A program made the position numbers and the translations under genes. This document shows, piece after piece, positions 1 through 50,522 of a DNA stretch of 64,000 bases (the stretch's first letter is position 1; each line of letters opens with the position of its first letter). Source of the stretch: Isoperla grammatica (lineage: Eukaryota; Arthropoda; Insecta; Plecoptera; Perlodidae); the NCBI GenBank assembly GCA_945910005.1, contig OX246743.1, positions 41,843,461 through 41,907,460 on the forward strand. The letters run 5' to 3'. The notes under the pieces were generated by a model, which worked only from the letters and a program-made list of their open reading frames with translations, was not told the DNA's origin and did not search any database.

Positions 1-3000
1 TACAATTTTGAAATTATTGTCAATTGTTGGTTCGGTTTATGTTAACCTACATCAGAAACATTATTTAAATCCGTTTGTAAGTTTTCATTTAATAAAATAA
101 ATAAACAAGTTTTGTCTTTTAGTAATTAATTTTTTGTAGGTTGGCATCTTGACGGATTTTGCTGGCTATGTTAACAGCATCGAGTTTAGTAGTCACAAAT
201 GTTGACAGAAAATTTCAGCCAAATACGTCAAGCCGTTTGACCTGTGCGCGACGAACAAAATTTAGCGCACATACATACAGACATACATACATACAGACAT
301 ACATACACACAGACAAAGCGCCGATCGAGTTGTATGGAGAGATTCACTCCGCTTCGCTACGCTCATCTAATAACTAGGAAAACGCTCCGCGTTGACAGAT
401 GAGCGATTTTTTTCAATGTATCAAATGAAATAAATCATTTGCATATCATACTAGGAAAACGCTCCGCGTTGCCAGATGAGCGAGTTTTTTTTAAGTAAAT
501 CAAACATATCATTTGCATATCATATTACTCTTACAAAAATAAATACCTTTATAATGTACACATGATTTTTTTAAAAAGAACGTGGTTCAAACTACAACCT
601 TAGAATTTGTGTATATTATTTGGCGATATGTTGCTAATAACTGCACGAAATATTATTTAAATCCGTCAAGAAGTTTTCTTTAAATAAATTAAAACCTTTA
701 AATTGATTTTTCAATGTAATTCCGCATAATCTAATTCAACCGTGATCTACTCAAAAGGCCCTAATTCATAAACTATTAAACCTACCAGTGTATGAAAAGT
801 TCCATAATGTAGATACAGACTATATCTAAAATGTGATATTGTTTAATCATACAATTACCGCATTTAAATGATAATAAAAGCGTTTTTATTTGTCTACAAA
901 GTTCGTTGTTAACATTTGCATTTTTGCCGTGAAAGTCATAAAACATAACACGCCATTGTAGCCATTCTATGATAGCTATCAACATTCCAAATACCTAGTG
1001 AGAAAGGTCTGACTCCCTACGCCATTCCTGCAGCATACTATGTGCATCTAACTTCAATGGTCCACAAATGCGAATCATATCGGTGGAACACTGTAAAAAT
1101 GAAGAAAATGTCTGCCGTAAATAAACAATATTTGTTTATAACATGGCGGTTAAAGCAACAATTTCGAAACTAATGTCGAATGTTGGTAGTAGTAATGTGG
1201 ACCTACATATGAAAAATCATTAATATAAGTGTGTAAGTTTTAATTTAAATAAATAAATAACAAAACACGTGTTTCAGTTGTTAATTTTTTGTAGGTTGGC
1301 ATCTAATGTCATTGTAGCCATTTTTTGACAGCTATCGAGATTCCAAATAATATTGCATAGGTATTGTTACGGACGCTATTTTTGGTGTATACTATATGCA
1401 TCTAATTGCAAAAGTCCGCAAATGCGAATCATATCGGCGGAACACTGTAAAAATGAAGAAATTATTGTTGTAAATAAACAATATTTTTTTATAACATGGC
1501 GGATAAACGTACAATTTTGAAACTATTGTTAATTGTTGGTACGGTTTATATAAACCTACATGAGAAACATTATTTTAATCCGTTGGTAAGTTTTCATTTA
1601 ATTAAATAAATAAACAAATTTTATTTTGCAGTAATTAATTTTTTGTAGGTTGGCATCTTGACGAATGTTGCTGATTATGTTAACAGCATCGAGTTAAGTG
1701 GTCACAAATGTTGACAGAAATTGTCAGCCAAATACGTTAAGCCGTTTGACCTGTGCGCGACGAACAAAATTTAGCGCACATACAGACATACAGACATACA
1801 TACATACATACATACACACAGACAAAGCGCCGATCGAGTTGTATGGAAAGATTCACTCCGCTTCGCTACGCTCATCTAATTACTCTTAAAAAAAAAAAAT
1901 ACCTTTATAATAAACATATGATTTTTTTACAAGATGGCGGATCAAGTTACAACCTTATAACTTAAGTATATTATTTCTTGATATGTCGCTAATAAATGCA
2001 CGAAATATTATTTAAATCCTTCAAGAAGTTTTCTTTAAAGAAATTAAAACCTTCAAGTTGATGGATTTCCGCATAATTTCATTCGACCGTGGTCTACTCA
2101 ATAGGCTCTAATTCATAAACTATTAAACATATCAGTGTAAAGAAAGTTTCATAATGTAGATACAGACTAAATCTAAAATCTTATATTGTTTAATCATACA
2201 ATTACTCGCATTTAAACTATAATAAAAGCTTTTTAAATTGTCGACCAAGTTTGTTGTTAACATTTGCATGTTTGCCGTGAAAGTCATAAAACATAACACG
2301 TCATTGTAGCCATTCTATGATAGCTAACAAAATTCCAAATACATAGTGAGAAAGGTCTGACTGCGTAAGCCATTTCGGCAGCATACTATGTGCATCTAAC
2401 TTTAACGGTCCGCAAATGCGAAGCATATCGGTGGAACACTGTAAAAACGAAAAAAAGTACTGCCGTAAATAAACAATATTTGTTTATAACATGGCGGTTA
2501 AAACTACAATTTTGAAACTGTTATCAAGTGTTGGTACTATTGATGTGGACCGACATATAAAAAATCATTAATATCCGTGTGTAAGTTTTAATTAAAATAA
2601 ATAAATAACAAAACACGTGTTTCAGTTGTTAATTTTTTGTAGGTTGGCATCTAATGTCATTGTAGCCATTCTATGACAGCTATCGAAATTCCAAATAATA
2701 GTGCAGAGGAATTGTTACGTACGCTATTTTTGGTGTATACAATGTGCATCTAATTGCAAAAGTCCGCAAATGCGAATCATATGGGCGGAACACTGTACAA
2801 ATGAAGAAATTATTGTTGTAAATAAACAATAATTTTAATAACATGGCGGATAAACGTACAATTTTGAAATTATTGTCAATTGTTGGTACTGTTGATATAA
2901 ACCTACATGTGAAACATTATTTAAATCCGTTTGTAAGTTTTCATTTTATTAAATAAATAAACAAATTTTATTTTTCAGTTATTAATTTTTTGTAGGTTGG

Positions 3001-3229
3001 CATCTTGACGAATTTTGCTGGTTATGTTAACAGCATCGAGTTTAGTAGTCACAAATGTTGACAGAAATTTTCAGCCAAATACGTCAAGCCGTTTGACCTG
3101 TGCGCGACGAACAAAATTTAGCGCACATACATACAGACATACATACATACAGACATACATACACACAGACAAAGCGCCGATCGAGTTGTATGGAGAGATT
3201 CACTCCGCTTCGCTACGCTCATCTAATAA
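1..3229. repeat. Tandem array, unit about 1.35 kb, with ACAT/ACAG microsatellite
   Basis: The same sequence block (starting ACAATTTTGAAA) recurs near 1, 1510 and 2858. A diverged half-unit with the same GTAGGTTGGCATCT segment recurs near 1158 and 2505, so the unit is composite. Copy 1 carries about 150 extra bp (375-528) holding two short repeats that contain GGAAAACGCTCCGCGTTG. Copy 3 stops at 3229. Each main unit ends with an ACATACAGACAT-type microsatellite and then CGCTTCGCTACGCTCATC. Short open frames here repeat with the unit and are not genes. A tandem core plus microsatellite plus fixed end recalls non-autonomous Helitron/pearl-type elements, but that is only a resemblance. Confidence 0.85.
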
Positions 3230-4594
3230 TTTCAGTGTTTTGGTGGAGGTGCCGGGTAAAAAAATAAATCACTACACAATGTTTTTCCTGTGTTATTATG
3301 ACGTCACATCAATATCTCTTGCGTTAATATTGTCATCACGTGTTTTATCGTGATTTGATCTCACGCCACGTGATCTTTATCACGTGGTTTCTCATGCGTT
3401 GAACGCGAGCTTTGAGGGGGGGGGGGGGGGGGTCTTACAATTTAATGAACCAATCTGATGCAGTGTTTCACCGAAATACCGTAGCTTATATAAAAGACGT
3501 AATCAAAGTCGTAAACTGAGATGCTTTATGTTTTTTATTAAAGACGAGGGATTTATGTTGGGCTCTTCAGAACATTTGGGACTAGATTTTAAGGGGGACA
3601 TCTCATTCGCAGAAGCTTTCTTCGCAGAAAGTATTTTGCAACAAATGAGTTGGGATCACATTTCCTCGTCTGTTTGTATAACTCTCGATACGAACTTAAA
3701 TTAATTTTTTTAATTACTCAATGAATCAATTTTCGATCAGGACTGTTAAAAGTTAAGATTGAACTGAGAGATATCAAATGGTGGTTAGTACTAGTTTAAA
3801 ATTTACTTGAATTCATAAAACAACACTGTATTTCGTTATTTAATCCACTTTTAAAATCTTGAAGCTATTAGTAATCGGAAACTGTTTTCCACTTTCAATT
3901 TCGGTACCAGTATTAAAAATAGACAGACCTTCATAAACAAACCCCGTGAATATAAGATGTAAATCATTTCTGAAATTTTAGATTTAAACATTTTTGTATT
4001 CAGACTGAAGTCTTCAATTTATTACATTCGAAATTTAAAACTAGCATTGTTTCACATTATAATACTTACAACAGAGCCACGAAATGTCAAATGGCTCCAC
4101 GTGTAGGAAAGTATATAGAGAAGTCTACTCGTAAACTCTCCGGACTCACAACACATATTTCACCCCTCACATGTTTCCCTGTGAGTTTTATCACCCCCGT
4201 TATGTCTCCTTGTGATGTAGGCCAATGAACAGCACCGTAAACAGCGTTTTATGACGTAGACTGTAGTGGCTATGCAAGTAGTCAGTCAGCAGGTGTCGCG
4301 CTGACCGTTACAGCTAGCGCGCGCGCTCTCGAGCGGTGAAGCGGGGAAGCTCGCCGCATATGTGTGTGTGGGTTGTTTTATTTACCACTTCGGTGGCTCA
4401 ACGCACCCACACTGGCCTACTTGTAAACCACGCCCATGTACAACGCTATAGAGTATATTAGTGTGACGTCACGATTCCCGTGTCAACCAATGAAGAACCG
4501 TATTTTTGACTCCAAACAATCATGACAGTTGACAGATAGTTTTGTTTTTGCAAACATTGTAGCGAGGGTTATCCGTTCAGATATTTTGTTTTCC
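3230..4594. other. Unannotated AT-rich stretch with a 17-G tract
   Basis: No open frame with recognisable protein similarity is seen. A run of 17 G lies at 3416-3432. Between about 4300 and 4400 the sequence becomes GC-richer with CpG-containing motifs. I see no clear promoter or RNA gene. Confidence 0.5.
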
Positions 4595-27277: not shown

Positions 27278-27551
27278 TTATCGACTTATTGTAAGTGAAT
27301 CCAATTTCAAGTTCTTTATCCCCTTGTAGGCAAAGAATCCCGTGATAACAATCGCCACCGGAATACCGTAGATTACCGAGAAAGTAATGAGCTTTTCTTT
27401 GGTACTTGCCAGCTTTGGCTTGACTTGTGGTGTCTGCTCCGTTGAGTTGAAGGTCGTGTTCATCCAGGTGTGGCCGTGGTGTAGCTCAGGGGTGGGCAAC
27501 GTGCCGTAGGGGGGTGAGTCGCGCGTGCGCAGGAAGAAACTCCCCTCGGCG
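27278..27551 (-). CDS. Lipase exon 7: C-terminal stalk and transmembrane helix
   Basis: The acceptor follows a strong T-rich tract (TTTTTCTTGCCGCAG). It encodes FFLRTR (a conserved strand motif near the end of invertebrate members), a Thr/Pro-rich stalk with sequons, a 22-residue hydrophobic helix starting LITFSVIYG, a Lys-rich stop-transfer region and TAA at 27278. Confidence 0.82.
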
Positions 27552-30500
27552 CTGCGGCAAGAAAAAAAACATACACTTTAATTTCATTTTTTTATTTATT
27601 GTACCATATTGTTGAAGGTGTATTTTTTAAACTTGATCACAAATGAACAAAGCTGCAAAGCACTGAAGCAATATAAAAAAGTGAACCTATACACTTAAAC
27701 TTGATCGATTGAGGATGCTTAATCCAAACATTTGTATGTGTTATATTTTTAAACATTGTTTTATACCCCAGTTTTACTTTCTTGTTTTCAAATTTCTCCT
27801 GCCCAGGGGCTGCAGCTACGTTACGTGTCCTACCGCAGATCTATGCCAGTGGAAGCGTATACCTCTGGTAGGGCCAACGGACAGGTCTAGGGGGGTGGGG
27901 GGTGGGGGGGGAGAAGTCAGACTATAGCAGTGCACATCCTCCGCTTTTCTTTTTCCTCCCCTTTCCTTGTAACTCCCCTTTACACATCCTACTTTTCCCT
28001 TCCTCCAAACACCCAAAGACGTCATATGATCATAGTTGTCGAGTACGCCTTTTAACACCCAATCATTGTATAGATAATTATTTTATTGTAGTTAAGGCCA
28101 GTGTAGGGCACAATGCCCTCTTTAGCCTGATGAGGAATGATTGATGAATGATAATGAGAAAGGAAGGAGGGGAAGCCCGGTACCGGCACGCAACCTACTC
28201 CTGACGCAAAGCACCAAGGGGACCATCGGCTTTACGTCCCATCCGAAAGGACGGTGTACCTTTGACCAGTCATATAGGTTCCTCCAGTAACCTGGACTGC
28301 CGAGCAGTTGACAAGAAGAACGAAGCTTTCGAACCCTCCAATCTGATCTAACCAACGGTAACTAGTGTTTACCTGTTATCGGCGCCCGCTCCCATGAAGG
28401 CTGTCTGGTTGAAAGAGCACGAGGTGTTGTGACTCGACGCGTTCACATACTCTTCCCATGAGCTGCACCGCTGAGCGGGGAAGCTGCTGGGTCTGTACAC
28501 TGACTCGACGTAGTAGCACACGGCCATCAGGTGGCTGCAGTGTACTGAAACAACAGCAACCTGGTTGTTAAAGAAAGAATGTCTATGTTTAAAGTTAATT
28601 CACCGTTTGAGTCCTGGGTAGAATAGGGCAAGAGTAGTTCTGCCTATCGTAAGAGGCTACAAAGGGATTGACGTTATATCACATTGTAGTTGAGTATGTC
28701 ACTCTATAAAATTAAGCTGCAATGAAGTAGTTACTAGTTAGCTAGTAAAGTGAACTCATTTGTTTTAATTTTATGAAATGAATTATATCTTCGATGAATG
28801 GTAGACTCGATGGTGATTTCATTATAAAATATGATTTGATTTGTCATCCCCTGAAAACTAGGAGCGTTCTTCCACATCAAAATTTGGATTGAAAATTAGA
28901 TAATTACATTGTCACCTTCCTCACCCACCTCACAGTAACTTTACTACGTCACTTGAATGTGGCGTTAATACCAGAAGGTGTTAAAATACACCGTCGATCT
29001 TCTAAAGCTCTTGAATCAATTATTCTATTATCAAACTGCACTCACGTGGTTCAAGGGTGCGGTTACCCCCCATGCAGGCGGGCTGGGGGTTGTGGCCCCC
29101 ATTGGGGTAGAAGTCTGCGTGGCCCAGTGGGGCCTGGAAACCCAGGAACACCAGCTCGGTGTGGACCACGGAGACAAACTCGGCGTCTGTCTTGTCCAGG
29201 CGTCGGTGAAGCGGGTACCTGGAGAACAGGGGCTGGGCCGGGTCCAGACCTGTAGAGCAATACAGACATACAGACATAGGTGTAGCGGGTACCTGGAGAA
29301 CAGGGGCTGGGCCGGGTCCAGACCTGTAGAGCAATACAGACATACAGACATAGGTGTAGCGGGTACCTGGAGAACAGGGGCTGGGCCGGGTCCAGACCTG
29401 TAGAGCAATACAGACATACAGACATAGGTGTAGCGGGTACCTGGAGAACAGGGGCTGGGCCGGGTCCAGACCTGTAGAGCAATACAGACATACAGACATA
29501 GGTGTAGCGGGTACCTGGAGAACAGGGGCTGGGCCGGGTCCAGACCTGTAGAGCAATACAGACATAGGTGTAGCGGGTACCTGGAGAACAGGGGCTGCGC
29601 CGGGTCCAGACCTGTAGAGCAATAGTGGGGCGTTATATTGCACATTAAAACACTCATTTGCTGTATTTTTTCATTTTTTTTTTTACTTGACATTGCCAAA
29701 TTTGTGAATAGCATTGATTGGTTTAAGAAATCTTGTTATCGTAGACATTTAGAAATGTATTATGTCTGGATGTAAAGAAGTCCTCTACTTTGAGGAAGTA
29801 GCCCCTAAATGTTTAGTGTGCCAACCGTGGCGGTATTTTATTTAAGGAATTTGTTTTAATTTTGGAAACAAGCGAAATCAATTCTATAACAATTGGGGTT
29901 GCTGGTTTTCCAGGAAACATCTCTTCATCCGGAATGTTTTGTTTTACGAGTTATAAAAAAGGGAAAAATAGCTTTCTAACATAAAATTGCAATACGTAGA
30001 TAGATAAGGCCAATGTAAGTGAACAGAACGAACACAGTATTGGTCTTAGCAAAGAAATACCACGTTCAAAATAATTGTCCCGGGTTCAAATCCCGGTACA
30101 GGCACAAGTTTTTTAACTTCCAATAAGGATTTAGTTTTATTACTTCTTGGGTTAGGAATAAGTAAACGGTGACTTTGGAGCCGTCCTAGCAACGAAGCAC
30201 TCAATAAATTCAAAGTTGTTCTGAATCGGCCTTGTTGATTCTGACATTTGTCCGCGGGTGTTCGCACTGTCCAATCACTGATTCCTATGTTTCGTATTTG
30301 AAATATCAATTTTTGATTGGTTATCGATCACTCGTCGATGGTGTTCGGAACCTACAGGGTTGGTTTAGTCGCTTTAAATTAAAGTCCCCCACTGCAAATC
30401 AGCTTCATTACTGAGTAGGTAGACTCTAAATGTGAATTTATTTATTTTTATTCATTTATCTTGTTCTAATTGTATTTAGTTTTCTAGAAACGATACATTT

Positions 30501-33500
30501 GAACAGTCTCGGTGAAACCATGAGAGCTCATCATTCAGTAACCAGCCGCGCATAAACCGCCCTACCAACCCTTCAAACGATGTTTACTCGCGCGATGCGA
30601 CTAAATGGTGTTTCCACGTTCAATTATGTAAATTATGTTGAAAGCAAACGTTGAACACATATCCCGGCATGAAGCCAGTTAACAGAAACCTGCCTATTTG
30701 TGAACTGAGTCGTATATTCCCGTGCGTTTGTGTATCTTTGACGGAAATGTATACGGTTTCACTCGGGAGGTATGTTATACGTGAGTTTGCGATTTACAAT
30801 GACACCGAAAAATACATATGGATTATTTTATTTCACAAAACAGGCATGAATTGGTCAATTTTGGATCAGAAAATGTCAAAATTGAATCACTTCAAAAACG
30901 CCCAAATTTGTACAATCCGGTATTTTGGTTTATTCGTGTTTTTATGGACAAAAACATGAGTAATAAGATGGTTTAAAATTTTAATCAAGCCACATTTGTT
31001 AATTTTGTTAGACATACATATATTATGCCTGACGTGGTTCAATCAAAGTTCTGAAGATTGAAGAAAAAAAATGAAAGTAGCCAGTCTCCGTGAATGAAAA
31101 GCTACAGATGAGAAAATACATTGTACGCGTGAATAAGCCCTAAATTTGTTAATTCCTTTCATCGTCTTCTTCTTCTATCACCCCTCATCGTCTCGAACAT
31201 CACGGTTGCAATAATAAAGACATAAAGCAACAACAAGAGGGATAAAGAAGAGTGGTGTGTTCATTTTTGTGTAGATAAAGGACCGATTGGTGTCGTATTA
31301 TGACCCGTTCTGACGACAAGTTGTAGAAAAGTACTTCCGGTTAGAAGAGGGGCCGAATATTCTCCAGATCATATTGAAGCACGTTTCATTTTACGAGTGC
31401 GTCCAATGACGTAAGAGCAGCGGGATACATAACACTGCGGGGGGGGGGGGGGGGCGCATTGACGGAACGGCAGACTCCAGGAGTTAATCCCAGAGACTTT
31501 TCCGGACTGCTTTTCCTTCTAGTGAAGAATTTCCATGAGCTCGAGATGGCTTAAAAATGCTAATAAACTGAACTGGCTATTCATACACAACACGGCATAT
31601 TAGATTGGTCCGTTCTTGAGCTCTCGCTTTGAGCGCGTTTAAAGAAAGTATAGATGAAAATGGAAAATAAGCCGAGTCAAACTTTATTCAATATTTTAAA
31701 ATATCTCTTAAAATTGTTTATAGTAAAATCACTACAATACAACGTTTACAAAACTCACACTCACAAACATGCGTAATATTTCGGCAGCATCCGCTGCCTT
31801 CCTCAGACTCGAGGGTACTCTGACGAAGGCAGTGGGTGCTGACGAAATATTACGAAATTTGTCAGTGCAAATTTTATAACCGTATTTCCAAGTGATTTTA
31901 TTACACGTGTCAAGACAATGAGACCTGGTTTTATCAAAATAATTCATAATATACAATAACTTAGAAGAACACATTCCTAGAACAATTAGGTTTCCATTTC
32001 TACTCGGTTGACAATAAGGTATATCAATGTCCCCTGTAGAATAGCACGCAACGCAACCGTGAATAATGTATACGCGTGCCTTGAGAGTGGCATTGCGATG
32101 CATCGCTTTGTTGTTGTTGTTGTCGTTGTTATGCATTATACCACAACACGGCTACTGGAGGTCGTGATTACGATGAAGGTCAAATGTATAACGTACAGTG
32201 TATGTTACATATTGTGGCGTATTGTATACATGATCGGTTACTTTTCAATGATATTACATTCAGTGATTACACTTGCGAAGTAGCCGACGGCAGCGCCATT
32301 GTTTTGCTCCTATCGGCAATGTCACGCCCTAACGAGTGCGTGATTTTCAGATTCGATAAAGAAGGTCTCTTTCCCAGAGGACAACTTCTTTATCGATTAT
32401 AATGTGAACACACTCAACAGAGCACGTTTTCTCCGCTGTTTTGAACGCGTTACAGTCTACTTTGGAAGCCTATAGTACCGGTACTGTTCAAACTGTGTAG
32501 TGGAGTGTGTACAATTCCCTACCTGTGATGCGGGACAAACTGCGATTGGTCTGCGCGCGAAAGAAGGTCCCTGCCATACCGGCAACGTGCCAACTGTGAT
32601 TGTGCCTACCTGTGATGCGGGACCAACTGCGATTGGTCTGCGCGTGAAAGAAGGTCCCTGCCATACCGGCCACGTGCCAACTGTGCATTGTGCCTACCTG
32701 TGATGCGGGACAAACTGCGATTGGTCTGCGCGCGAAAGAAAGTCCCTGCCATACCGGCCACGTGCCAACTGTGTATTGTGCCTACCTGTGATGCGGGACA
32801 AACTGCGATTGGTCTGCGCGCGAAAGAAGGTCCCTGCCATACCGGCAACGTGCCAACTGTGCATTGTGCCTACCTGTGATGCGGGACAAACTGCGATTGG
32901 TCTGCGCGCGAAAGAAGGTCCCTGCCATACCGGCAACGTGCCAACTGTGCATTGTCCCTACCTGGGATGCGGGACAAACTGCGATTGGTCTGCGCGCGAA
33001 AGAAGGTCCCTGCCATACCGGCAACGTGCCAACTGTGCATTGTCCCTACCTGGGATGCGGGACAAACTGCGATTGGTCTGCGCGCGAAAGAAGGTCCCTG
33101 CCATACCGGCAACGTGCCAACTGTGCATTGTGCCTACCTGTGATGCGGGACAAACTGCGATTGGTCTGCGCGCGAAAGAAGGTCCCTGCCATACCGGCAA
33201 CGTGCCAACTGTGCATTGTGCCTACCTGTGATGCGGGTCAAACTGCGATTGGTCTGCGCGCGAAAGTTGGTCCCTGCCATACCGGCAACGTGCTAACTGT
33301 GCATTGTGCCTACCTGTGATGCGGGACAAACTGCGATTGGTCTGCGCGCGTAAGAAGGTCCCTGCCATACCGGCCACGTGCCAACTGCATTGTGCCTACC
33401 TGTGATGCGGGACAAACTGCGATTGGTCTGCGCGCGAAAGAAGGTCCCTGCCATACCGGCAACGTGCCAACTGTGCATTGTGCCTACCTGTGATGCGGGT

Positions 33501-36500
33501 CAAACTGCGATTGGTCTGCGCGCGAAAGAAGGTCCCTGCCATACCGGCAACGTGCCAACTGTGCATTGTGCCTACCTGTGATGCGGGACAAAATGCGATT
33601 GGTCTGCGCGCGAAAGAAGGTCCCTGCCATACCGGCAAAGTGCCAACTGTGCATTGTGCCTACCTGTGATGCGGGACAAACTGCGATTGGTCTGCGCGCG
33701 AAAGAAGGTCCCTGCCATACCGGCAACGTGCCAACTGTGTATTGTGCCTACCTGTGATGCGGGACAAACTGCGATTGGTCTGCGCGCGTAAGAAGGTCCC
33801 TGCCATACCGGCAACGTGCCAACTGTGCATTGTGCCTAACTGTGATGCGGGACAAACTGCGATTGGTCTGCGCGCGAAAGAAGGCCCCTGCCATACCGGC
33901 AACGTGCCAACTGTGCATTGTGCCTAACTGTGATGCGGGACAAACTGCGATTGGTCTGCGCGCGTAAGAAGGTCCCTGCCATACCGGCAACGTGCCAACT
34001 GTGCATTGTGCCTAACTGTGATGCGGGACAAACTGCGATTGGTCTGCGCGCGTAAGAAGGTCCCTGCCATACCGGCAACGTGCCAACTGTGCATTGTGCC
34101 TACCTGTGATGCGGGTCAAACTGCGATTGGTCTGCGCGCGTAAGAAGGTCCCTGCCATACCGGCAACGTGCCAACTGTGCATTGTGCCTACCTGTGATGC
34201 GGGTCAAACTGCGATTGGTCTGCGCGCGTAAGAAGGTCCCTGCCATACCGGCAACGTGCCAACTGTGCATTGTGCCTACCTGTGATGCGGGACAAACTGC
34301 GATTGGTCTGCGCGCGTAAGAAGGTCCCTGCCATACCGGCAACGTGCCAACTGTGCATTGTGCCTACCTGTGATGCGGGTCAAACTGCGATTGGTCTGCG
34401 CCAGAAAGAAGGTCCCTGCCATACCGGCAACGTGCGCGCCGAGGCTGAACCCAATGAGATGGAAATCTTCCACCTTCGACGCCGACCGCTTGAGTAATTC
34501 CTTGATGAAGTCGGCGGTCCATTGGGCGACCACGGAGACGTTTTTGACGGCCGGGGTGTAGAAGGGCCCAACAGCCAGCGGGGCCCAGTCTACAGTTACC
34601 ACATTCACGTCCTCCATGAAGAGATGGGCTGAAACAAGTGTAGGCACGTTAAGTGGGCCCACTGGGCGACGTAGAAGGGCCCAACAGCCAGCGGGGCCCA
34701 GTCCATAGTGACCACATTCAAGTCCTCCATGAAGAGATGGACTGAAACAAGAGTTGGCACGTTAAGTGGGCCCACTGGGCGACGTGGAAGGGCCCAACAG
34801 CCAGCGGGGCCCAGTCTACAGTTACCACATTCACGTCCTCCATGTAGAGATGGGCTGAAACAAGTGTAGACACGTTAAGTGGGCCCACTGGACGACTTGG
34901 AAGGGCCCAACAGCCAGCGGGGCCCAGTCTACAGTTACCACATTTACGTCCTCCATGAAGAGATGGGCTGAAACAAGAGATAATTGTAATGACTTTCGTG
35001 GGACTACACGTTATAGGGTGCATACCAGCTTTACCTGCTGTGCCCCTCTTGAGGTAACTAACATAGGTATGATAGGGTGTTTGGATAGTTGGAAGGAATG
35101 TCCGAGGGCTGTTGAAGGACTCAATCCCAGCATTCGCTTTTACGACTGAAGAAAACCGTTCAGTTAGAACTGACGGGGGCCGGTATTGAACCGACGACCT
35201 CTCGAAAGTGTATCGTGTTTTTCCGCTGGGCCACAATACCCGCTTTATCGACCAACCCGCGTTCGAAGCGAATAATAACACGGGGTCTAGAATGTTTGTG
35301 GGACTTACCATCTCTTATCTCCTGCATGCGCTTGTTGCTGGCTCGTCCCTTGAAGCCGTGAATCAGGATGTACGTTCTCTTGGGCTCCCAGACGACCTGG
35401 AATAAGTCCTTACTGTCATTCCCCATGCGACAGTTCGCCTGGAGGGTGGAGTTGTTCAACCCCGTGTCTCTCAGACCCTGGCCGCAGTCTTGGTAGGTGT
35501 ACATCGTCTCCCGCGACAGATTATCGGTGGCGATCGGATGATTTCTGAAATAAGAATTAAAATCGTTTGTTATAATGGACCATTTTGAAAACTATCTACG
35601 ATTCTTTGTTTGATTCTCATTATTGTCATTCATAGTCAGCCCCTACACATAGGGGCGCCCATTGTTGCCAGGTAACAGATTCATGCAAGTTACTTCTCAT
35701 GTATAAAACAAATACATATCAACAACGGGTGTACGGGTAGGGACGACTACGAATACGGACCTTGATCTTTATGTACAACCATACTCAAAAATTAAAATTA
35801 ATAGATCAAGATCTGATATGCATCAATAAATCTTGACACTAATTTTTAATTGTTGTGTATTGTTGTTCTTGAAGAATAAAGGCGGGTTCACACAAAATGA
35901 CTAAGACTAACGATTAGTGTTTAAGACTAACGATTTAAGGTTTAACAGGGTTGAAGTATACGATTTATGTTTAAGCGTTAACAAACTTTTATAGTGATTA
36001 GTGTTTAAGAACGAGTGATTAAGAAAGTTGATTTTCGATTGTTGGCATTGTTGAAATACATTTGGGGATGGATGTTTCCGAGTACGTTGTTTTCCCAAGG
36101 CTTAATCACTCTATTGTTAGTCTTAGTCCATAGTCATTCTGTCTAAACGCGCCTTTAGAGAACCCTGAAAGAATCATACAAAGGGGCCCAGATCGTTTCT
36201 ATTCACAATTTATTTACACAAAAATTGGTTCGGTATTATTTAAGATTGATGATTTTCGTTACTTGGATATATATATTATTTACGAAAATGTACAGTAAGA
36301 AAACAAAAGCACGATTTTTTAAGACATCTTGGAAGTTGGGCATCTTCGAGCTTCCAGGCCCCGGAGGGTTAAAAGTTCTTGAAACTTTCCTTGTAAAATG
36401 CTAAACAGCTTATAAAATAATAATAAGCTTCTTACCTGTTGTAAAGAATGGCCTTGATTTGTTCCCGGGCTTCTGCTTCTGTACTTAGGTTCCCGAGCAC

Positions 36501-36815
36501 TTTGGTAGTCAGTCCTGTAATTTAGAACAGTAAATACTTTATTAAGTTTAATTTACAACTAGTTTGTTTCAATTGTTGTGAGGGAAGTTTTACAAGGCAT
36601 TAATTAAATGTACATGTTTATGTTTTAATTATGAGTTTCCTGGACCAGAGCGAGTTTTAACATTTTGTAAGAGATATATAGAAGAGAAGACTTACATAAG
36701 AGCATACTTAGCAAAACTTAAAAACGAAAGAAAAACATAAAAACAACTATGATTCAACCACTAGTTTACCTATGTATATCACGAAGATGGATACAATCCA
36801 CTGAAGTTGACCCAT
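27278..36815 (-). CDS. Pancreatic-lipase-family lipase/phospholipase, membrane-anchored, 7 coding exons
   Basis: Spliced from 36770-36815, 36436-36514, 35309-35544, 34368-34628, 29067-29249, 28373-28544 and 27278-27551. All introns are GT-AG, phases agree, and the product is 416 residues. By family this is a secreted-type alpha/beta-hydrolase cutting acyl esters of glycerolipids. Residues 1-16 are a hydrophobic signal peptide. LIHGF (102-106) is the oxyanion-side motif, GFSLG (180-184) holds nucleophile Ser182, GLDPAQP gives Asp210 and CSH gives His273. Only four residues separate Cys266 from Cys271, so the lid is nearly absent, as in many invertebrate members and phospholipase A1-like enzymes. 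A PLAT domain is missing. Residues 380-401 form a transmembrane helix followed by a 15-residue tail, so the enzyme is probably tethered to the membrane facing out. Several N-glycosylation sequons occur. Substrate cannot be told. Exons 4 and 5 abut three tandem arrays made of their own splice boundaries. Confidence 0.9.
27790..28090 (+). repeat. SINE-like element (TATGCC...TGGTAGGGC family) in lipase intron 6
   Basis: It holds CTATGCCAGTGGAAGCGTAT, CTCTGGTAGGGCCAACGGAC and, further on, GTTGTCGAGTACGCCTTTTA. The same order of blocks occurs at 61515-61780 and 62815-63230. A G-rich stretch interrupts it at 27889-27912. Confidence 0.7.
28130..28345. repeat. Third SINE-like segment in lipase intron 6
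   Basis: GGGAAGCCCGGTACCGGCAC, CTACTCCTGACGC, then CGGCTTTACGTCCCATCCGA and AAAGGACGG. This wording is typical of dispersed elements in invertebrate genomes. Only one copy is in the window, so the assignment rests on recollection of similar elements. Confidence 0.45.
28373..28544 (-). CDS. Lipase exon 6: catalytic histidine
   Basis: 172 nt, residues 270-325. HCSHL carries His273, followed by the family's conserved YY.ES motif (YYVES). Four cysteines and sequons NAS, NTS and NQT follow. Confidence 0.88.
28612..28720 (+). repeat. SINE-like element, GTCGCC core family, opposite orientation
   Basis: CCTGGGTAGAATAGGGCAAG, TGCCTATCGTAAGAGGC and TAGTTGAGTATGTC are the reverse complement of the 26706-26830 element. 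It lies in lipase intron 5. Confidence 0.7.
29067..29249 (-). CDS. Lipase exon 5: catalytic aspartate
   Basis: 183 nt, residues 209-268, encoding LDPAQPLF (Asp210), HADFYPNGG and Cys266. It starts at the array copy nearest the coding body; five further identical acceptors lie upstream. The donor is GTAACC directly after the ATGGGGG run. Confidence 0.85.
29211..29624 (-). repeat. 6 x 74-bp array of the exon 5 splice acceptor
   Basis: On the minus strand each unit contains TGCTCTACAG followed by 40 nt of exon 5 (GTCTGGACCCGGCCCAGCCC and on to the GTACCCGCT region). Exon-type starts fall at 29249, 29323, 29397, 29471, 29545 and 29611. Spacing is 74 bp; the last is 66 because one CATACAGA is missing. 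The intron part of each unit is a CAGACATACAGACATA microsatellite. All three frames stay open across the array. Confidence 0.95.
29625..30054. other. Lipase intron 4, unannotated part
   Basis: AT-rich intron sequence; nothing recognised. Confidence 0.4.
30055..30462 (+). repeat. tRNA-derived SINE-like element in lipase intron 4
   Basis: The left end has a perfect T-arm (CCGGGTTCAAATCCCGG at about 30081-30097) preceded by a degraded tRNA-like half. The body runs to TGGTTATCGATCACTCGTCG, CCTACAGGGTTGGTTTAGTC and an AAGTCCCCCACTG block. The last 155 bp recur at 41613-41770. Confidence 0.65.
30463..31766. other. Lipase intron 4, unannotated part with 16-G tract
   Basis: A run of 16 G at 31439-31454. 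A 102-codon plus-strand frame (30651-30959) shows no family motif and lies inside the intron; I do not call it a gene. Confidence 0.4.
31767..31843. repeat. Imperfect 77-bp hairpin in lipase intron 4
   Basis: AATATTTCGGCAGCATCCGC at the left and GTGGGTGCTGACGAAATATT at the right are inverted copies with few mismatches around a TCGAGG centre. Confidence 0.8.
31844..32517. other. Lipase intron 4, unannotated part
   Basis: It contains a short TTGTTGTTGTTG run near 32108 and a 20-bp inverted pair (TTCGATAAAGAAG, 32352, and CTTCTTTATCGA, 32386). No gene. Confidence 0.4.
32518..34435 (-). repeat. 22 x 88-bp array of the exon 4 splice donor
   Basis: Every unit contains 68 nt of the exon 4 end (GCACGTTGCCGGTATGGCAG to CCGCATCACAG), the donor GTAGGC and 20 nt of intron in total. 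Donor positions recur at 32521, 32608 and 32696, then every 88 bp, with one 86-bp step, up to 34366. The copy at the right end is the real exon. Units differ by a few substitutions. Open frames across the array are artefacts of repeated exon sequence. Confidence 0.97.
34368..34628 (-). CDS. Lipase exon 4: nucleophile serine
   Basis: 261 nt, residues 122-207. VVTVDW and GFSLGAHVAG are family hallmarks; Ser182 is the nucleophile. The first 71 nt with the acceptor are repeated upstream in a 113-bp array. The last 68 nt with the donor are repeated downstream in an 88-bp array. This genuine copy reads FFLAQ where the array copies read FFRAQ, owing to CCAG versus CGCG near 34400. Confidence 0.9.
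34558..34978 (-). repeat. 4 x 113-bp array of the exon 4 splice acceptor
   Basis: Each unit has 71 nt of the exon 4 start preceded by a TTGTTTCAG acceptor. Exon-type starts lie at 34628, 34741, 34854 and 34967, exactly 113 bp apart. The unit also includes GTCGCCCAGTGGGCCCAC, which resembles exon 4 sequence further in (GTCGCCCAATGGACCGCC), so the unit joins two separate parts of the exon. Confidence 0.95.
35012..35243 (-). repeat. tRNA-derived SINE in lipase intron 3
   Basis: Read on the minus strand it starts with a tRNA-like head (35173-35243; GTGGCCCAGCGG as box A region, GGTTCAATACC as box B) followed by a body with GACTCAATCCCAGCATTCGC in complement order, GGAATGTCC and GCACCCTATAACG. 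A second copy lies at 43478-43697 and a headless one at 44318-44440. Confidence 0.75.
35309..35544 (-). CDS. Lipase exon 3: HGF oxyanion motif
   Basis: 236 nt, acceptor TTTCAG, donor GTAAGT. It encodes residues 43-120 with LIHGF at 102-106, which lines the oxyanion hole in this family. A sequon NNST precedes it. Confidence 0.9.
35877..36157. mobile_element. MITE-like inverted-repeat element in lipase intron 2
   Basis: TAAAGGCGGGTTCACACAAA at the left matches the complement of the right end (TAAAGGCGCGTTTAGACAGA), both followed by ATGACTA. TA flanks suggest Tc1/mariner-type insertion. 281 bp, non-coding. Confidence 0.75.
36436..36514 (-). CDS. Lipase exon 2
   Basis: 79 nt between a TTACAG acceptor and a GTAAGA donor. 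It encodes residues 17-41, including sequon NLS and the ILYN start of the lipase fold (family: FLLYT/FWLYT). Confidence 0.85.
36770..36815 (-). CDS. Lipase exon 1: start codon and signal peptide
   Basis: It encodes MGQLQWIVSIFVIYI plus the first base of Gly16, ending at a GTAAAC donor. The hydrophobic run fits a signal peptide. No other in-phase ATG with a donor joins exon 2. Confidence 0.8.
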
Positions 36816-40075: not shown

Positions 40076-40275
40076 NNNNNNNNNNNNNNNNNNNNNNNNN
40101 NNNNNNNNNNNNNNNNNNNNNNNNNNNNNNNNNNNNNNNNNNNNNNNNNNNNNNNNNNNNNNNNNNNNNNNNNNNNNNNNNNNNNNNNNNNNNNNNNNNN
40201 NNNNNNNNNNNNNNNNNNNNNNNNNNNNNNNNNNNNNNNNNNNNNNNNNNNNNNNNNNNNNNNNNNNNNNNNNNN
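40076..40275. other. Assembly gap of 200 N
   Basis: Exactly 200 N, which suggests a placeholder length. Sequence to its right is unusually CpG-rich (GCGCGGGCGTTCCGCGTCGT), unlike that to its left, so the gap may hide a repeat or a misjoin. Confidence 0.99.
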
Positions 40276-44740: not shown

Positions 44741-45690
44741 TGTTAATGATGTATTTTGTACTAGCCTATGTAGAAAATTAACTGCGGCTCTTTTCTTAAT
44801 TGTTTAGAACAAAGCTGTTCGAATTTATTGTTTGAATTATGTGCTGAAAGAAGTTTGCTAATTGCATTGAAGTTATACTTTTATCCGGCACGTTCTAATT
44901 ATTTCTTTTAAAGCTTTTTTTTAAAGAACATTTCTCCGCGTATATACTAAATGCGAGCTGAAATAACTGGACAGTGTGCGGAGAACTTGGCTTGGGGCAA
45001 CTTACAGTCAAGTGCCGGTAACTCATTTATAGATTGTAATTGCTTTGTACTAAATTGCGTTCAAATTGTATGAATGGTTTCTTCTGCTTCCAGATATCAA
45101 GCACTCTTTTGTCGCCACATTTCTCGGGGAAGCATTTCAACATCTGGGCCAAACATCAAAGCGAAGTCGGAAATACTAAACAGAACTAAGAGCTAGTGCA
45201 CCACAACGCCAAGGAAGTCCTCATCCATTTCACATCTCGACAATAGTGTTGCTGAAGTGACCTCAAACACCCCTTGGAGAATAATTTCCCGACGGAAAGT
45301 AAAAAAAAAATCTCGACAGAAATGTTCGCGAAGGGTTTTTTACAACTTCGGTTTTCAACTGCGGCTCGTTTCTAGAAATATCGTCTCGTCGAGACGGATC
45401 CTAGGTAAATACATTCGAAATATACCGGAGGAAAATAAAGTTGGATCGTACGCGGATATGTATTTGCATTTCAGTTTTTCACCCGCAACGGATATGTAAT
45501 TCCATTTGTTACAGTCTATAAACAAAATCGTGTCGTTTTTATTTTTAGCGAGCGAAATGGGTGGTGAAAACATTTGGGTCATATCGACGACGCATTAGTG
45601 TACGAAATGCAACTGTTCAAGTGCACCGGTGTCATCACTTCAGTATTATGATAAAGAGTGTGTATAAATAAAACCCGAAGATATCCGAAC
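44741..45690. other. Region upstream of the Ras-family gene
   Basis: It probably includes the 5' leader and promoter. TATAAATA at 45663-45670 is only 21 nt before the ATG, too close for a usual TATA-driven start. No other element is distinct. Confidence 0.4.
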
Positions 45691-46133
45691 ATGAGCGACC
45701 TCGAACGAATCCGTCTCGTGATTCTCGGAGGGGCGGGGGTGGGCAAGAGTTGCATCGTCAAGCGGTTCCTCTTCAACACATTCACGGACAAGTATCGCTC
45801 GACCGTCGAGGACCTCTACAACCGCGAGTATGACCTTGGACCGGTGTCTCTCAAGGTCGATATCTTGGACACGGCCGGTGACCTTCAGTTTCCCGCGATG
45901 AGAAGGCTGTGCATCGCGACGGCGCACGCCTTCCTCCTCGTCTACGCGACCACGTCGGCGCCGTCCTTCCAGAGCGTCAAGAATTGTTTCGAGGAGGTCC
46001 GGGAACAGAGGGCCGACTTCCAGGATATTCCCATCGTCGTAGCCGGGAATAAGTTTGACCTTGCCAAGAGTCATCGTGAGGTGCAGATTGAGGACGTGTC
46101 CGAGTGGGTCTACTGTGAACTACCCAAGCTCAA
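45691..46133 (+). CDS. Ras-family GTPase exon 1: G1 to G4
   Basis: It encodes residues 1-147 with P-loop, switch I, switch II and NKFD. It is GC-rich compared with its surroundings (third positions mostly C or G), a sign of real coding sequence. The long antisense frame over it is a shadow. Confidence 0.93.
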
Positions 46134-49100
46134 GTAAGAACTAGAATCAATTACTATTAAATACAGTCAAATACATTTATTTACGTATCATTGCAGGGAA
46201 TCTGTCATTTTTACAATTACTTTGGTACTTTTTCAAATACTTTTTAATTTCTTAGATAAATTCTTAATACTAAACGAAGTTGTTCATGCACGCAAATAGG
46301 ACGAAAGTTTCGGGACCAGTCAAAAGGGGGTGTGTTGGAGGGATAAACAAGAAAACATCGCGAATATATAGCGAACCCTCAATATATTTTTAACTTTGAT
46401 AATATGTTTCTCGTTGTATTTGAGTGATTCAGATTAAACGGCTATAAAAAGTAAGAAATATGTTACACTAACTTATGATAATATGCAATATGAGTGGAGT
46501 AAGTCAGCAGACACTATGGAACAATCCAGAGATAAACTAATATCCAAACTAATGTTTGTGGCGGTTCATGTCATGTCAATATACTAAACTCAAACTAAAC
46601 TATTGTACTCAATAGTGATACTGCTATTTGCTGAGTAGACGAGTCACAAGTATCGGTCATTCATCGGTCACACAAGTATCGAACTTACTCGTATTTATGT
46701 CAGTAGTTTTCAAACTGTTAAACCACGAAGTGTATAATTAGTTATCTGTGGATCGACTCACTGTTTGTATAGTTTGTTGCATCGGACACGTGTACATGTT
46801 GTTGAGACGTGACTTCGGACGTGAAGCATTCTAACCTATATTCCATTACAGTTCGAGTGACCATCGCTGTTGCACTACCTTGTGTTAGTCCTAGGGTTAG
46901 TATTGGTCCAGGGGTGAGAGGTCCTTGAATGACCAACTATCTGTTAAGATTCAAAGGGCTCGGCCACCACCAGCCGCAGTGCGAGTTTTACCTTTTGATC
47001 ACGATTTTCGAACGTGAAAACGCTTTGAAGTAGAGAAATAGGATGTTATACATTTATTTTCTCTAATAAAAAGTATAGCATTTATTTACGGATGTTTTAA
47101 GGTAAGTTTCCATGGTAGAAATATGATTCGAAACATCATGTTGGGCATAACAAAGCGACGACACGGGATGTCCCCTCGAATCTACAACACTGAGTATTAA
47201 TAAAAATAGTGAACAATGCTTCAGGTGAAGCAATGTAAACCATTGTAGTTCCCACAGTGCGTACGTTGAGCGAGGGTGTTCATTTACATCCCCTTCCCTT
47301 CAAGAACGAGGTCATGCTACATCCCCCACTAAAGCAAAGACACTTCCCTCGACTACAACCCTGAGTATAAAAATAGTGAAGCAATGTAAACCATTGTAGT
47401 TCCCACAGTGCGTACGTTGAGCGAGGGTGTTCATTTACATCCCCTTCCCTTCAAGACGAGGTCATGCTACATCCCCCACTAAAGCAAGGACACTTCCTTC
47501 GACTACAACCCTGAGTATAAGAAAAGAGAAGCAATGTAAACCATTGTAGTTCCCACAGTGCGTACATTGAGGAAGGGTGTACATTTACTTCCCTTCAAGA
47601 ACGAGGTCATGCTACATCCCCCACTAAAGCAAGGACACTTCCCTCGACTACAACCCATGAGTATAAGAAAAGAGAAGCAATGTAAACCATTGTAGTTCCC
47701 ACAGTGCGTACATTGAGGGAGGGTGTACATTTACTTCCGGTTCCCTTCAAGAACGAGGTCATGCCACATCCCCCTCTTGAGACCGCCTCAAACGACAAGT
47801 GACGTCACTAGACGTTGAAAACAACCGCTTAATTACCTTATTCCCTCTATACGCAGATAAAGAGTTAGTAACACCCTGCGGCTTGGTGACCTCGATCTGT
47901 ACCCCCATCGTTTAACGCCGCCCTTTGTTGCGAGACTCGGATAAAATCATCTGCTTATCTGCGAAACTGGGTTATAAGCCCAACTTTAATCCGCGAACTA
48001 ACTTTATACGGGGACGCAACGAAGGCAATGTTGTGCAGGCATTTACTGACATGAGGGAGGAAGTGGGTCAGACTCATTGGGCGCTTGGGGGAAGATAATA
48101 TCACTGACAGTAATGGAAGATATCATTTATTTTTATTTCTATAAACAATGTTAATCTTCCTATTCAGTAGGCCTACGGACATTTGAAGGCTACCATAGGG
48201 CTAATTTTACAGCACTCAAGCTTATAAGGGAGAGTTTTTTTTGCAAATTGAATGTTGCCATTTATATGACATACATTCAATTTTAATTGTAATTTATAAC
48301 CATATATTTATTAGACTGTATAAGGTAGAGACTTTGTTATTTGTGTAATTTACCTTGTTTAACAGTAGGCTTATAATACGTTGGTATGATTTGTAAAGAT
48401 ATTCTTTTATTGGAACAGTTTCAAATTACTAAATAATGGATCTATAAAATACCATATTATCGATTCATGCGGCTTTCAATTTGCCATCATGACAGCATTG
48501 CGTCATCTAGTCATTCGAGATTTACTTTACATTACTTTAAGGTGAATCTACCCCCAATTTATTTTTATTTTTTAAATATGCATAAAGACAACAAATGGGT
48601 AAGTATAAGAAATACGCTCATTTGAGAACATCAAAACTAATTTTCAAGCCCATTTTGGAGGAGCCATATAGTATTTACTACGGGTTTTATGAAAAATACG
48701 GCTAACAACTACGTTTAAACCACAGAGGCGTTTGGTATGCGATTTTTTGTTTGCAACTTACCCTCACTATTGGCTATGTGGATTTAGTGTTTTCAAATAA
48801 GTGTCTTCAATATTTAGTTTACTACGATTTATTTTGTTCTCCGGTACGGAAATTGTATTTGTACCGGCGAGCAGAATAAATCGTAGTAAACCAAATATTG
48901 AAAATACTTGTTTGAAAACACTAAATCCACATAGCCAATAGTGAGGGTAAGGTGTAACACAAAAATCTCATACCAAACGCGTATGTGGTTTAAACGTAGT
49001 TGTTAGCCGTATTCGTCATAAAAACCCGTTGTAAATACCATACGGCTCCTCCAAAATGGGCTTGAAAATTAGTTTTGATCTTCTCAAATGAGAGTATTTA

Positions 49101-50522
49101 ATATACTAACTCCACATGTGTACTTTATGCATATTAAAAAAAAATATATATATGGTGGTAGATTCGCCTTAATTAAGTATAATTCTAATAACTTCTAAAA
49201 AAGAGAACATTGTTTCTGTCCCCTCCCCCCCCCCCCCCCCCCCCCCACGACTAAGTCTAGACCAGCCAACGTCTTCTATTGGCGTGACAAGCTAAACGAG
49301 ACTCCTCAATCTCCGGTAACACTGGCGTCTCCCTGTAATTCACTGCATGGGTCAATCTCTAAAACGCTTTTACATAATAACCATGGCTACATTTAATTAC
49401 ATACGTTGAAGGTAATTACTAATTATCTAGCCAAGTCTTGAAGATCCTCTTTATCAAGCCATGGTAAGGGCTGTTCCCTGGTGGTCGGATGTAATTGGCC
49501 GAAACTGATTGCTCTCACTATCGATCGTGACGTCAATTAGTAGACGAAGACATCCATCTCGTTCATAGCAATCTTTAACATACCCTCTCTCCTTCAATAT
49601 TTCCTTCAAATACATCATAAGATACATACGTTGACTATTTGATGTCTAACGACGTACTCGACAGCTTAGGTCATGTGACGTCTTCCGAATCAGACCAATT
49701 ATACATCGCAGGGGTCATCATAAAGGGAGGGAGGGGAGGAGAGCCAAGTAGGATGAGGAATCATAAGTGGGGCAGTGGGGGAAATAGCCGGGGTCTTCTT
49801 TTATCGCCTCTTACGACTGGCAGAGCTACCCTTGCTAAAAGAGAACAAAACATTATGTGGAGATGAGAGGTGAACAGTAGGCTAGGGTTGAATTGGAGAG
49901 ATGGTGCGAGGACCAGGATAGATCGAAATAATTGATTGGAAGAAAGTAAAGAAGAAAAAAACGAAAATTATGTGCTAATCTTGGCAGGCAGGTATACTGA
50001 TGTTATTTATGCCCAAGTCTAGACGGCAACACTTCCTTTCCCAACAACTGTGTTGAAAATGAGATAATTGACTTAAAGATATATCAAATAAATTTTAAAT
50101 TCGTCATTTGATAATGTATCTCAAGTATGTGAAGACTTGTTATATAATATGACCTTGCTCTCTTTGTCCGCAGGGTGAAGGTGATGGAATGCTCGGCCAA
50201 GGACGACTACAACGTCAAGGAGATCTTCCGCTGCTTCCTGACCTTGTCACGTATCCTCCCTGTGAACGGGGAGGATTCTGCCGGGGGGTTGAAGCGCCGC
50301 TCCTCCGCCTACGTGAGCGCGAGCTCCAAGGGCGCGCGGCGAGGGGGTTCCCCGCCTCGGGGCGCCGAGTCGTCGAGCCACCTGTCGAGCGGCGAGGGAA
50401 CCTCGTCGGGTGGCCTTGAGGTCGCCAAGGTCAAACCGCGCAGCAGGAGTCTCATACGAAGGTCGAGTAGGAAGGCGAAGCAACAGATGAGAGATGCCCA
50501 TGACGAGTGTAATGTTTCGTAG
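45691..50522 (+). CDS. Ras-family small GTPase related to Rhes/Dexras/Di-Ras, 2 exons
   Basis: Exon 1 is 45691-46133 and exon 2 is 50174-50522 (donor GTAAGA, acceptor CCGCAG). The split codon gives Lys148; the product has 263 residues. It is a GTP-binding switch expected on the inner face of membranes. The motifs are P-loop GGAGVGKS (13-20), Thr38 in switch I, DTAGD (60-64), NKFD (120-123) and CSAK (154-157). FPAMRRL after switch II is shared with Rhes and Dexras. Ala15 replaces Ras Gly12 and Asp64 replaces Ras Gln61, so intrinsic GTP hydrolysis may be slow. After residue 180 comes a long Ser/Gly/Arg-rich tail, a basic stretch (RSLIRRSSRKAKQ) and a final CNVS, a CaaX-type site for prenylation. 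An exon 1 start upstream of Met1 has no support. The exact orthology group is uncertain. Confidence 0.92.
46134..47164. other. GTPase intron, unannotated part
   Basis: AT-rich intron sequence with no recognised feature. Confidence 0.4.
47165..47775. repeat. Tandem repeat of about 150 bp, four copies, in the GTPase intron
   Basis: GAAGCAATGTAAACCATTGT starts at 47227, 47378, 47528 and 47674. Each copy continues with CCCACAGTGCGTAC, a CCCTTCAAGAACGAGGTCAT block and CATCCCCCACTAAAGCAA. The minus-strand frames here are repeat translations. Confidence 0.93.
47776..48540. other. GTPase intron, unannotated part
   Basis: Nothing recognised. TTAA at 48537-48540 is the left target site of the next element. 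Confidence 0.4.
48541..49168. mobile_element. Foldback element with TTAA target sites
   Basis: The ends GGTGAATCTACC and GGTAGATTCGCC (as its complement) lie directly inside TTAA on both sides (48537-48540, 49169-49172), as in piggyBac-type insertion. Arms of about 290 bases are inverted copies around a centre containing CCGGTAC...GTACCGG (near 48840-48866). Non-coding. Confidence 0.85.
49225..49246. repeat. 22-C homopolymer
   Basis: The longest homopolymer in the window, inside the GTPase intron next to the TTAA element. Confidence 0.97.
49640..49850. repeat. Degraded SINE-like element, GTCGCC core family
   Basis: TCTAACGACGTACTCGACAG, then after 120 bp TTTATCGCCTCTTACGACTG and GCAGAGCTACCCTTGC. 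It is the same order as at 26706-26830, but interrupted. Confidence 0.65.
50174..50522 (+). CDS. Ras-family GTPase exon 2: G5 and C-terminal tail
   Basis: It starts with G completing Lys148, then VKVMECSAK. The tail holds RRSSAYVSASS, a Ser/Gly linker, a basic cluster and CNVS before TAG. A GC-rich block as in exon 1. Confidence 0.92.

Follow-up and report, generated by a model that had tools for sequence, protein, structure and literature searches.

Why should three consecutive splice boundaries of one gene each sit inside a tandem array of its own? The question is raised by a lipase gene in a 64,000-nucleotide stretch of the Isoperla grammatica genome (hereafter the window, C13:41843461-41907460; the assembly comprises 874 Mb in 603 contigs). 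A preliminary description of this DNA had placed the exon 4 acceptor, the exon 4 donor and the exon 5 acceptor in separate arrays of 4 x 113, 22 x 88 and 6 x 74 bp, and both Tandem Repeats Finder (TRF) and an intact gene model bear this out. The arrays are structurally like the repeats known in amphioxus as mirages and do not form a new class of element; they are most likely neutral. We detected arrays by TRF and obtained copy numbers by cutting the arrays at splice sites. The gene, its exons and the three arrays are as follows.

27278..36815, minus strand: lipase gene, coding part; 7 exons, open coding sequence (CDS), GT/AG introns, match to PF00151 and to PDB
36815-36770, 36514-36436, 35544-35309, 34628-34368, 29249-29046, 28544-28373 and 27551-27278, minus strand: lipase exons 1-7
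34558..34979, minus strand: array 1, exon 4 acceptor; 4 copies of a 113-bp unit (TRF, 113 bp x 3.7)
32518..34435, minus strand: array 2, exon 4 donor; 22 copies of an 88-bp unit (TRF, 88 bp x 21.8)
29205..29624, minus strand: array 3, exon 5 acceptor; 6 copies of a 74-bp unit (TRF, 74 bp x 5.8)

The lipase gene is intact and complete. Its joined exons give a 1272-nt CDS (423 codons with a stop) with GT/AG introns, and the protein matches Lipase PF00151 in Pfam (7e-56) and pancreatic lipase related protein 2 in PDB (9.8e-35). Most of its protein matches are from arthropods; the first eleven also include a clam and a coral. We aligned the window protein with 13 arthropod lipases picked among 120 listed matches (567 found). 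All 14 sequences agree at I206-P211, the stretch that spans the exon 4/5 junction, and at H280, and S182 is almost fully conserved; we take S182, D210 and H280 to be the catalytic residues. The GC content is 0.58 for exon 4 and 0.66 for exon 5.

All three units share a common plan, in which 45-71 bp of exon edge are combined with a filler and the bare core of the native splice signal. The 113-bp unit consists of 71 bp of exon start, about 30 bp of filler and 10-12 bp of native acceptor. The preliminary description had taken each unit for exon edge plus neighbouring intron edge. The exonic part of this holds, but native intron makes up just 5 bp at donor 4, 10-12 bp at acceptor 4 and 13 bp at acceptor 5, and the remaining intronic part, the filler, is not present in the native flank. 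Copies in array 2 are spaced by 88 bp throughout, except for one interval of 86 and one of 87, and those in array 3 by 74 bp, with an outermost interval of 66 bp. The units differ among the three arrays, and each array straddles a splice site. When the seven exons with 60-bp flanks were searched against the window by blastn, extra copies appeared solely at the three array boundaries, which upholds the earlier statement that exon interiors and the other splice sites are unexpanded. The sole other match linked 27 bp of the exon 5 acceptor region to a microsatellite at 1772-1798. Within the window, blastn found no other lipase exon or boundary repeated, nor either of two stretches tested from a neighbouring Di-Ras gene (described below).

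Which copies does the gene use? We ran a frame test on all 528 combinations of 4 exon 4 acceptors, 22 donors and 6 exon 5 acceptors. The frame is kept to the normal stop in only five, all of them with the innermost exon 4 acceptor, and no alternative exon 4 acceptor in the set keeps it. The all-innermost combination is the sole one to yield a 423-aa product; the other four add 54, 74, 128 or 150 codons. With the other sites innermost, each of donor copies 3-22 leads to a stop at 237 codons, and exon 4 acceptor copies 1-3 lead to a stop at 165. None of the unit lengths (113, 88 and 74) is a multiple of three. Because the innermost copies give an intact protein and so few combinations keep the frame, the surplus copies are best taken as intron and most likely leave with the introns. 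We infer that the innermost sites are those spliced, which would give the following exons.

34368..34628, minus strand: exon 4 as probably used; the innermost acceptor and innermost donor copy give the 423-aa lipase
29046..29249, minus strand: exon 5 as probably used; innermost acceptor, with I206-P211 invariant over the exon 4/5 junction

The copies within an array are not identical. The donor reads CAG|GTAGG in 19 of the 22 copies and CAG|TTAGG in three adjacent ones, which have a GT-to-TT loss in common; the core signal is kept in all 10 acceptor copies. The innermost donor copy carries a variant not found in the other 21. Among the 19 full-length 88-bp units, similarity falls with distance (Spearman 0.264, permutation p 0.004), as predicted by local slippage or unequal exchange. 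In the same units 16 of 88 positions vary, one of the 8 in the splice core versus 15 of the 80 elsewhere.

The preliminary description held that no standard element behaves in this way. That claim fails, since boundary-spanning minisatellites have been described in amphioxus. According to the available parts of two reports (PMC3087553, PMC3902484), mirages are minisatellite-like repeats with an exon-intron boundary inside the unit, at a 5' or 3' splice site; examples include Adh3, the globins BflGb6 and BflGb9, troponin C and PGBD5, the units measure 10-72, 150-160, 157, 60 and 108 bp, and normal splicing is said not to be disturbed. The accessible text further describes two mirages in one gene, PGBD5, one of them mistaken for an exon by automatic annotation (PMC3902484), and array ends spared from homogenisation in BflGb6 (PMC3087553). 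The likeness is close: here too the unit contains the exon-intron boundary, at three boundaries; one authentic boundary remains and the gene is intact, as judged by the open CDS, the lipase domain and the frame test; and, in the 88-bp array only, near copies are alike and an array end is spared as in BflGb6. The differences are that the host is an insect, whereas all examples under the name of mirage in the text available are cephalochordate, and that three consecutive boundaries of one gene are affected, with up to 22 copies, in a case known from genome sequence alone.

Two other systems are related. In human genes within segmental duplications, the part of the report available to us describes internal tandem repeats at exon-intron boundaries that alter intron extent (PMC2812944). 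Common to both are minisatellites at exon edges. In the human paralogues, which are recent, such repeats can give rise to new introns and to alternative transcripts, whereas we see no added intron in the lipase gene. Intron gain by tandem duplication in a potato RdRp gene, as far as the accessible text goes (PMC4974935), likewise involves a tandemly duplicated piece with splice signals; unlike there, no intron was gained here, and the open frame needs one intron per position. Literature searches returned no insect or crustacean case of splice-boundary repeats among the open-access matches, which were mostly judged from listings, and the available portions of papers on a beetle genome (PMC8956072) and a prawn lectin (PMC7536079) describe none.

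Very probably, then, the three arrays are minisatellites of the mirage kind, seeded in GC-rich sequence, tolerated since one complete boundary remains, with a normal gene and drifting copies. GC-rich exon edges would have undergone short tandem duplications, with filler where the pieces joined, that by chance included a splice site; the units would then have multiplied by slippage or unequal exchange. Each event would have left one complete exon edge beside the exon body, and because of this the duplicated edges would fall into the intron and be removed with it, so that the gene would work normally and the copies would drift. The route of seed formation and the lack of function of the copies are what we infer; the arrays themselves, the intactness of the gene, the outcome of the frame test, the variation among copies and similar arrays elsewhere in the genome are observed.

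How common are such arrays? We drew 40 random places on C13 and used the first 20 by position (0.97-19.5 Mb), which hold 35 arrays of period >=30 in 199.8 kb, with 42% of bases covered; eight of the other 20 (5 kb each, 23.9-45.0 Mb) hold 8 arrays in 40 kb, with 12% covered. All 28 stretches together contain 43 such arrays in 239.8 kb, with a GC content of 0.498 inside arrays versus 0.397 outside. Over these stretches, the probability that a single-copy landmark falls in a seed unit is about 3.4%. The random 10-kb stretches L016, L020, L022 and L030 consist of nearly nothing but tandem arrays, with differing units. The window holds 11 arrays of period >=30 (9.4% of bases), and the 88-bp unit has 22 matches in the assembly, all inside array 2. 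Because arrays are abundant and GC-rich in the C13 sample, GC-rich exon edges are expected to seed them. If the C13 rate held genome-wide, and assuming about 10^5 splice sites, thousands of mirages would be expected.

We compared the window with chance, using its 11 arrays and 14 splice sites (12 from the lipase gene and two approximate sites from Di-Ras); all P values are post hoc, as the window was singled out as striking. Random placement of ancestral units gives a mean of 0.28 splice-site overlaps (P(>=3) 0.0022), that of whole arrays a mean of 0.86 (P(>=3) 0.047), and the seed density of the sampled 239.8 kb gives P(>=3 of 12 lipase sites) 0.007. The genome has room for about 13,700 windows of equal size, and one like this among them need not be surprising. 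At exon edges there may be a modest excess, unproven and suggestive only. Four points nevertheless weigh against the mirage interpretation as set out above. Three arrays in one gene exceed the number expected from seed density (P 0.002-0.007), so chance may not account for them fully. One in-frame combination with a single change, the third exon 5 acceptor copy, would add 74 codons. The copies taken to be spliced were read from DNA. Finally, 1/8 versus 15/80 variable positions are too few to exclude weak constraint on the splice core.

The strongest rival, which we consider unlikely, is a process tied to exon edges that raises tandem duplication there, driven for example by the step in GC content, by breaks linked to transcription, or by end joining that inserts templated filler. 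It would account for 3 of the 11 window arrays straddling splice sites (P 0.0022 under random seeds), for the one plan shared by all three units, and for a filler that resembles nearby exon sequence. The last of these concerns acceptor 4, for which a possible source is as follows.

34508..34530, minus strand: exon 4 stretch resembling the filler of the 113-bp unit, possible source; local alignment score 21

This score was reached in 0 of 500 shuffles, one comparison among 12. The acceptor 5 filler has a weak likeness to an inverted stretch at 29761-29773 (p 0.002, among the same 12) and to part of the microsatellite at 1772-1798, and for the donor 4 filler the 12 comparisons revealed no flanking source. 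We also considered a second lipase gene within the window as the origin of the fillers and rejected it, since tblastn found none. Single-strand folding of one unit per array gave a borderline result for the 113-bp unit, with 7/200 shuffles folding as well, and unremarkable ones for the remaining two units (63/200 and 87/200), which speaks against the exon-edge process; on the same grounds hairpin-driven instability was rejected. Composition alone may also explain the excess, since a high GC content is common to exon edges and to the arrays in all places sampled.

Other lipase genes bear on the same process. In a Pfam lipase profile search of the assembly, 120 of 254 candidates were scored, giving at least 104 exon matches. 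Five further lipase places were picked since the search showed repeated pieces there, and in this selected set all five have repeats across a donor-like site:

L040: 2 copies; donor homologous to the window exon 4 donor
L041: 2 copies; donor homologous to the window exon 4 donor
L042: 7 copies, the array exceeding both ends of the stretch; donor homologous to the window exon 4 donor
L039: 5 copies; donor other than the exon 4 homologue
L043: 2 clear and 2 diverged copies; donor other than the exon 4 homologue

Homologues of the exon 4 donor number 34 among the scored matches, and we read 17 (the window's, L040-L042, 10 further ones and L056-L058). Boundary-spanning repeats occur at five of the 17, namely the window's, C9:29132035, C9:29173598, C15:40693487 and C1:133460556, all of them already visible before reading. 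The other 12 have no repeat across the donor, although L047 and L056 have an array further downstream. The 17 unread donors show no second profile match at that edge, though the profile would miss short copies. Because the two C9 repeats are 99.7% identical over 595 bp, we counted them as one event. The donor repeats of L040 (C9) and L042 (C1), on different chromosomes, start at an identical exon position, which points to shared ancestry or a favoured breakpoint, and they may not be independent. Five of 34 donors thus amount to 3 or 4 independent events versus about 1.2 expected; at the sampled seed density P(>=3) is 0.11, P(>=4) 0.028 and P(>=5) 0.0057, again post hoc. Beyond their exon parts, the units of different lipase genes share just short matches of chance level. 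The count at homologous donors favours an exon-edge process but is too weak to decide on it, and the boundary-linked duplication proposed in the preliminary description is not shown, given how abundant and GC-rich arrays are in the C13 sample. That exon edges are tandem-duplication hot spots in this insect beyond the GC effect, with the same lipase donor expanded more than once, is doubtful; if true, redundant splice sites would keep arising in its genes, a steady supply from which new introns and isoforms could form.

Selection for many splice signals, as decoys, splicing enhancers or sources of alternative products, had also been proposed, and we regard it as very improbable. The core is kept in 19 of 22 donors and all 10 acceptors, but copies of recent origin would resemble one another in any case, and selection is not needed to explain intact cores. 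The lost GT common to three neighbouring donors disfavours selection on each copy, and on these small numbers nothing suggests that every donor copy is maintained in working order. The early stops at 237 and 165 codons, the unit lengths and the 5/528 frame result lend selection no support either. An assembly artefact is least probable of all: the window contains a 200-N gap (40076-40275), but the copies differ individually, all 22 are clustered at a single position on a 48-Mb contig, and similar arrays occur in other genes.

One of those genes is trypsin-like, from a family in which 150 of 1710 candidates were scored; it is a single case picked for visible repeats and gives no rate. Elsewhere in the window lies a small GTPase gene.

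C1:134579650-134580300: L055, trypsin-like gene; 156-bp unit x 2.6, with the acceptor of the GDSGGP exon present twice
45655-50522, plus strand: Di-Ras-type small GTPase gene, at least two exons

The best three Di-Ras matches are from Timema, Zootermopsis and Anabrus (82-84% identity over the whole length), followed by Gryllus and Bacillus rossius (77-78%); all five belong to Polyneoptera, so a polyneopteran host is likely. Together with the lipase matches they led us to reject amphioxus, which we had considered as host because of its mirages. A 150-bp x 3.7 array at 47227-47774 lies between two Di-Ras exons and touches neither. Large direct repeats with spacings of about 1350 and 350 bp lie within 1-4000. 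No tRNA genes and no Rfam families (at the gathering threshold) were found in the window. Elsewhere in the assembly, lipase matches at C509:40045-40695 and C12:32719786-32720079 fall within exceptionally long open frames, of 2093 and 987 codons, that may represent stop-free arrays next to exons.

If mirages are common in this insect, they would suggest that mirages follow from a minisatellite-rich genome and are not peculiar to amphioxus. The lipase gene and others like it would then offer a system for asking how the spliceosome chooses among 22 nearly identical donors, and a test bed for boundary duplications as a major route to new introns.

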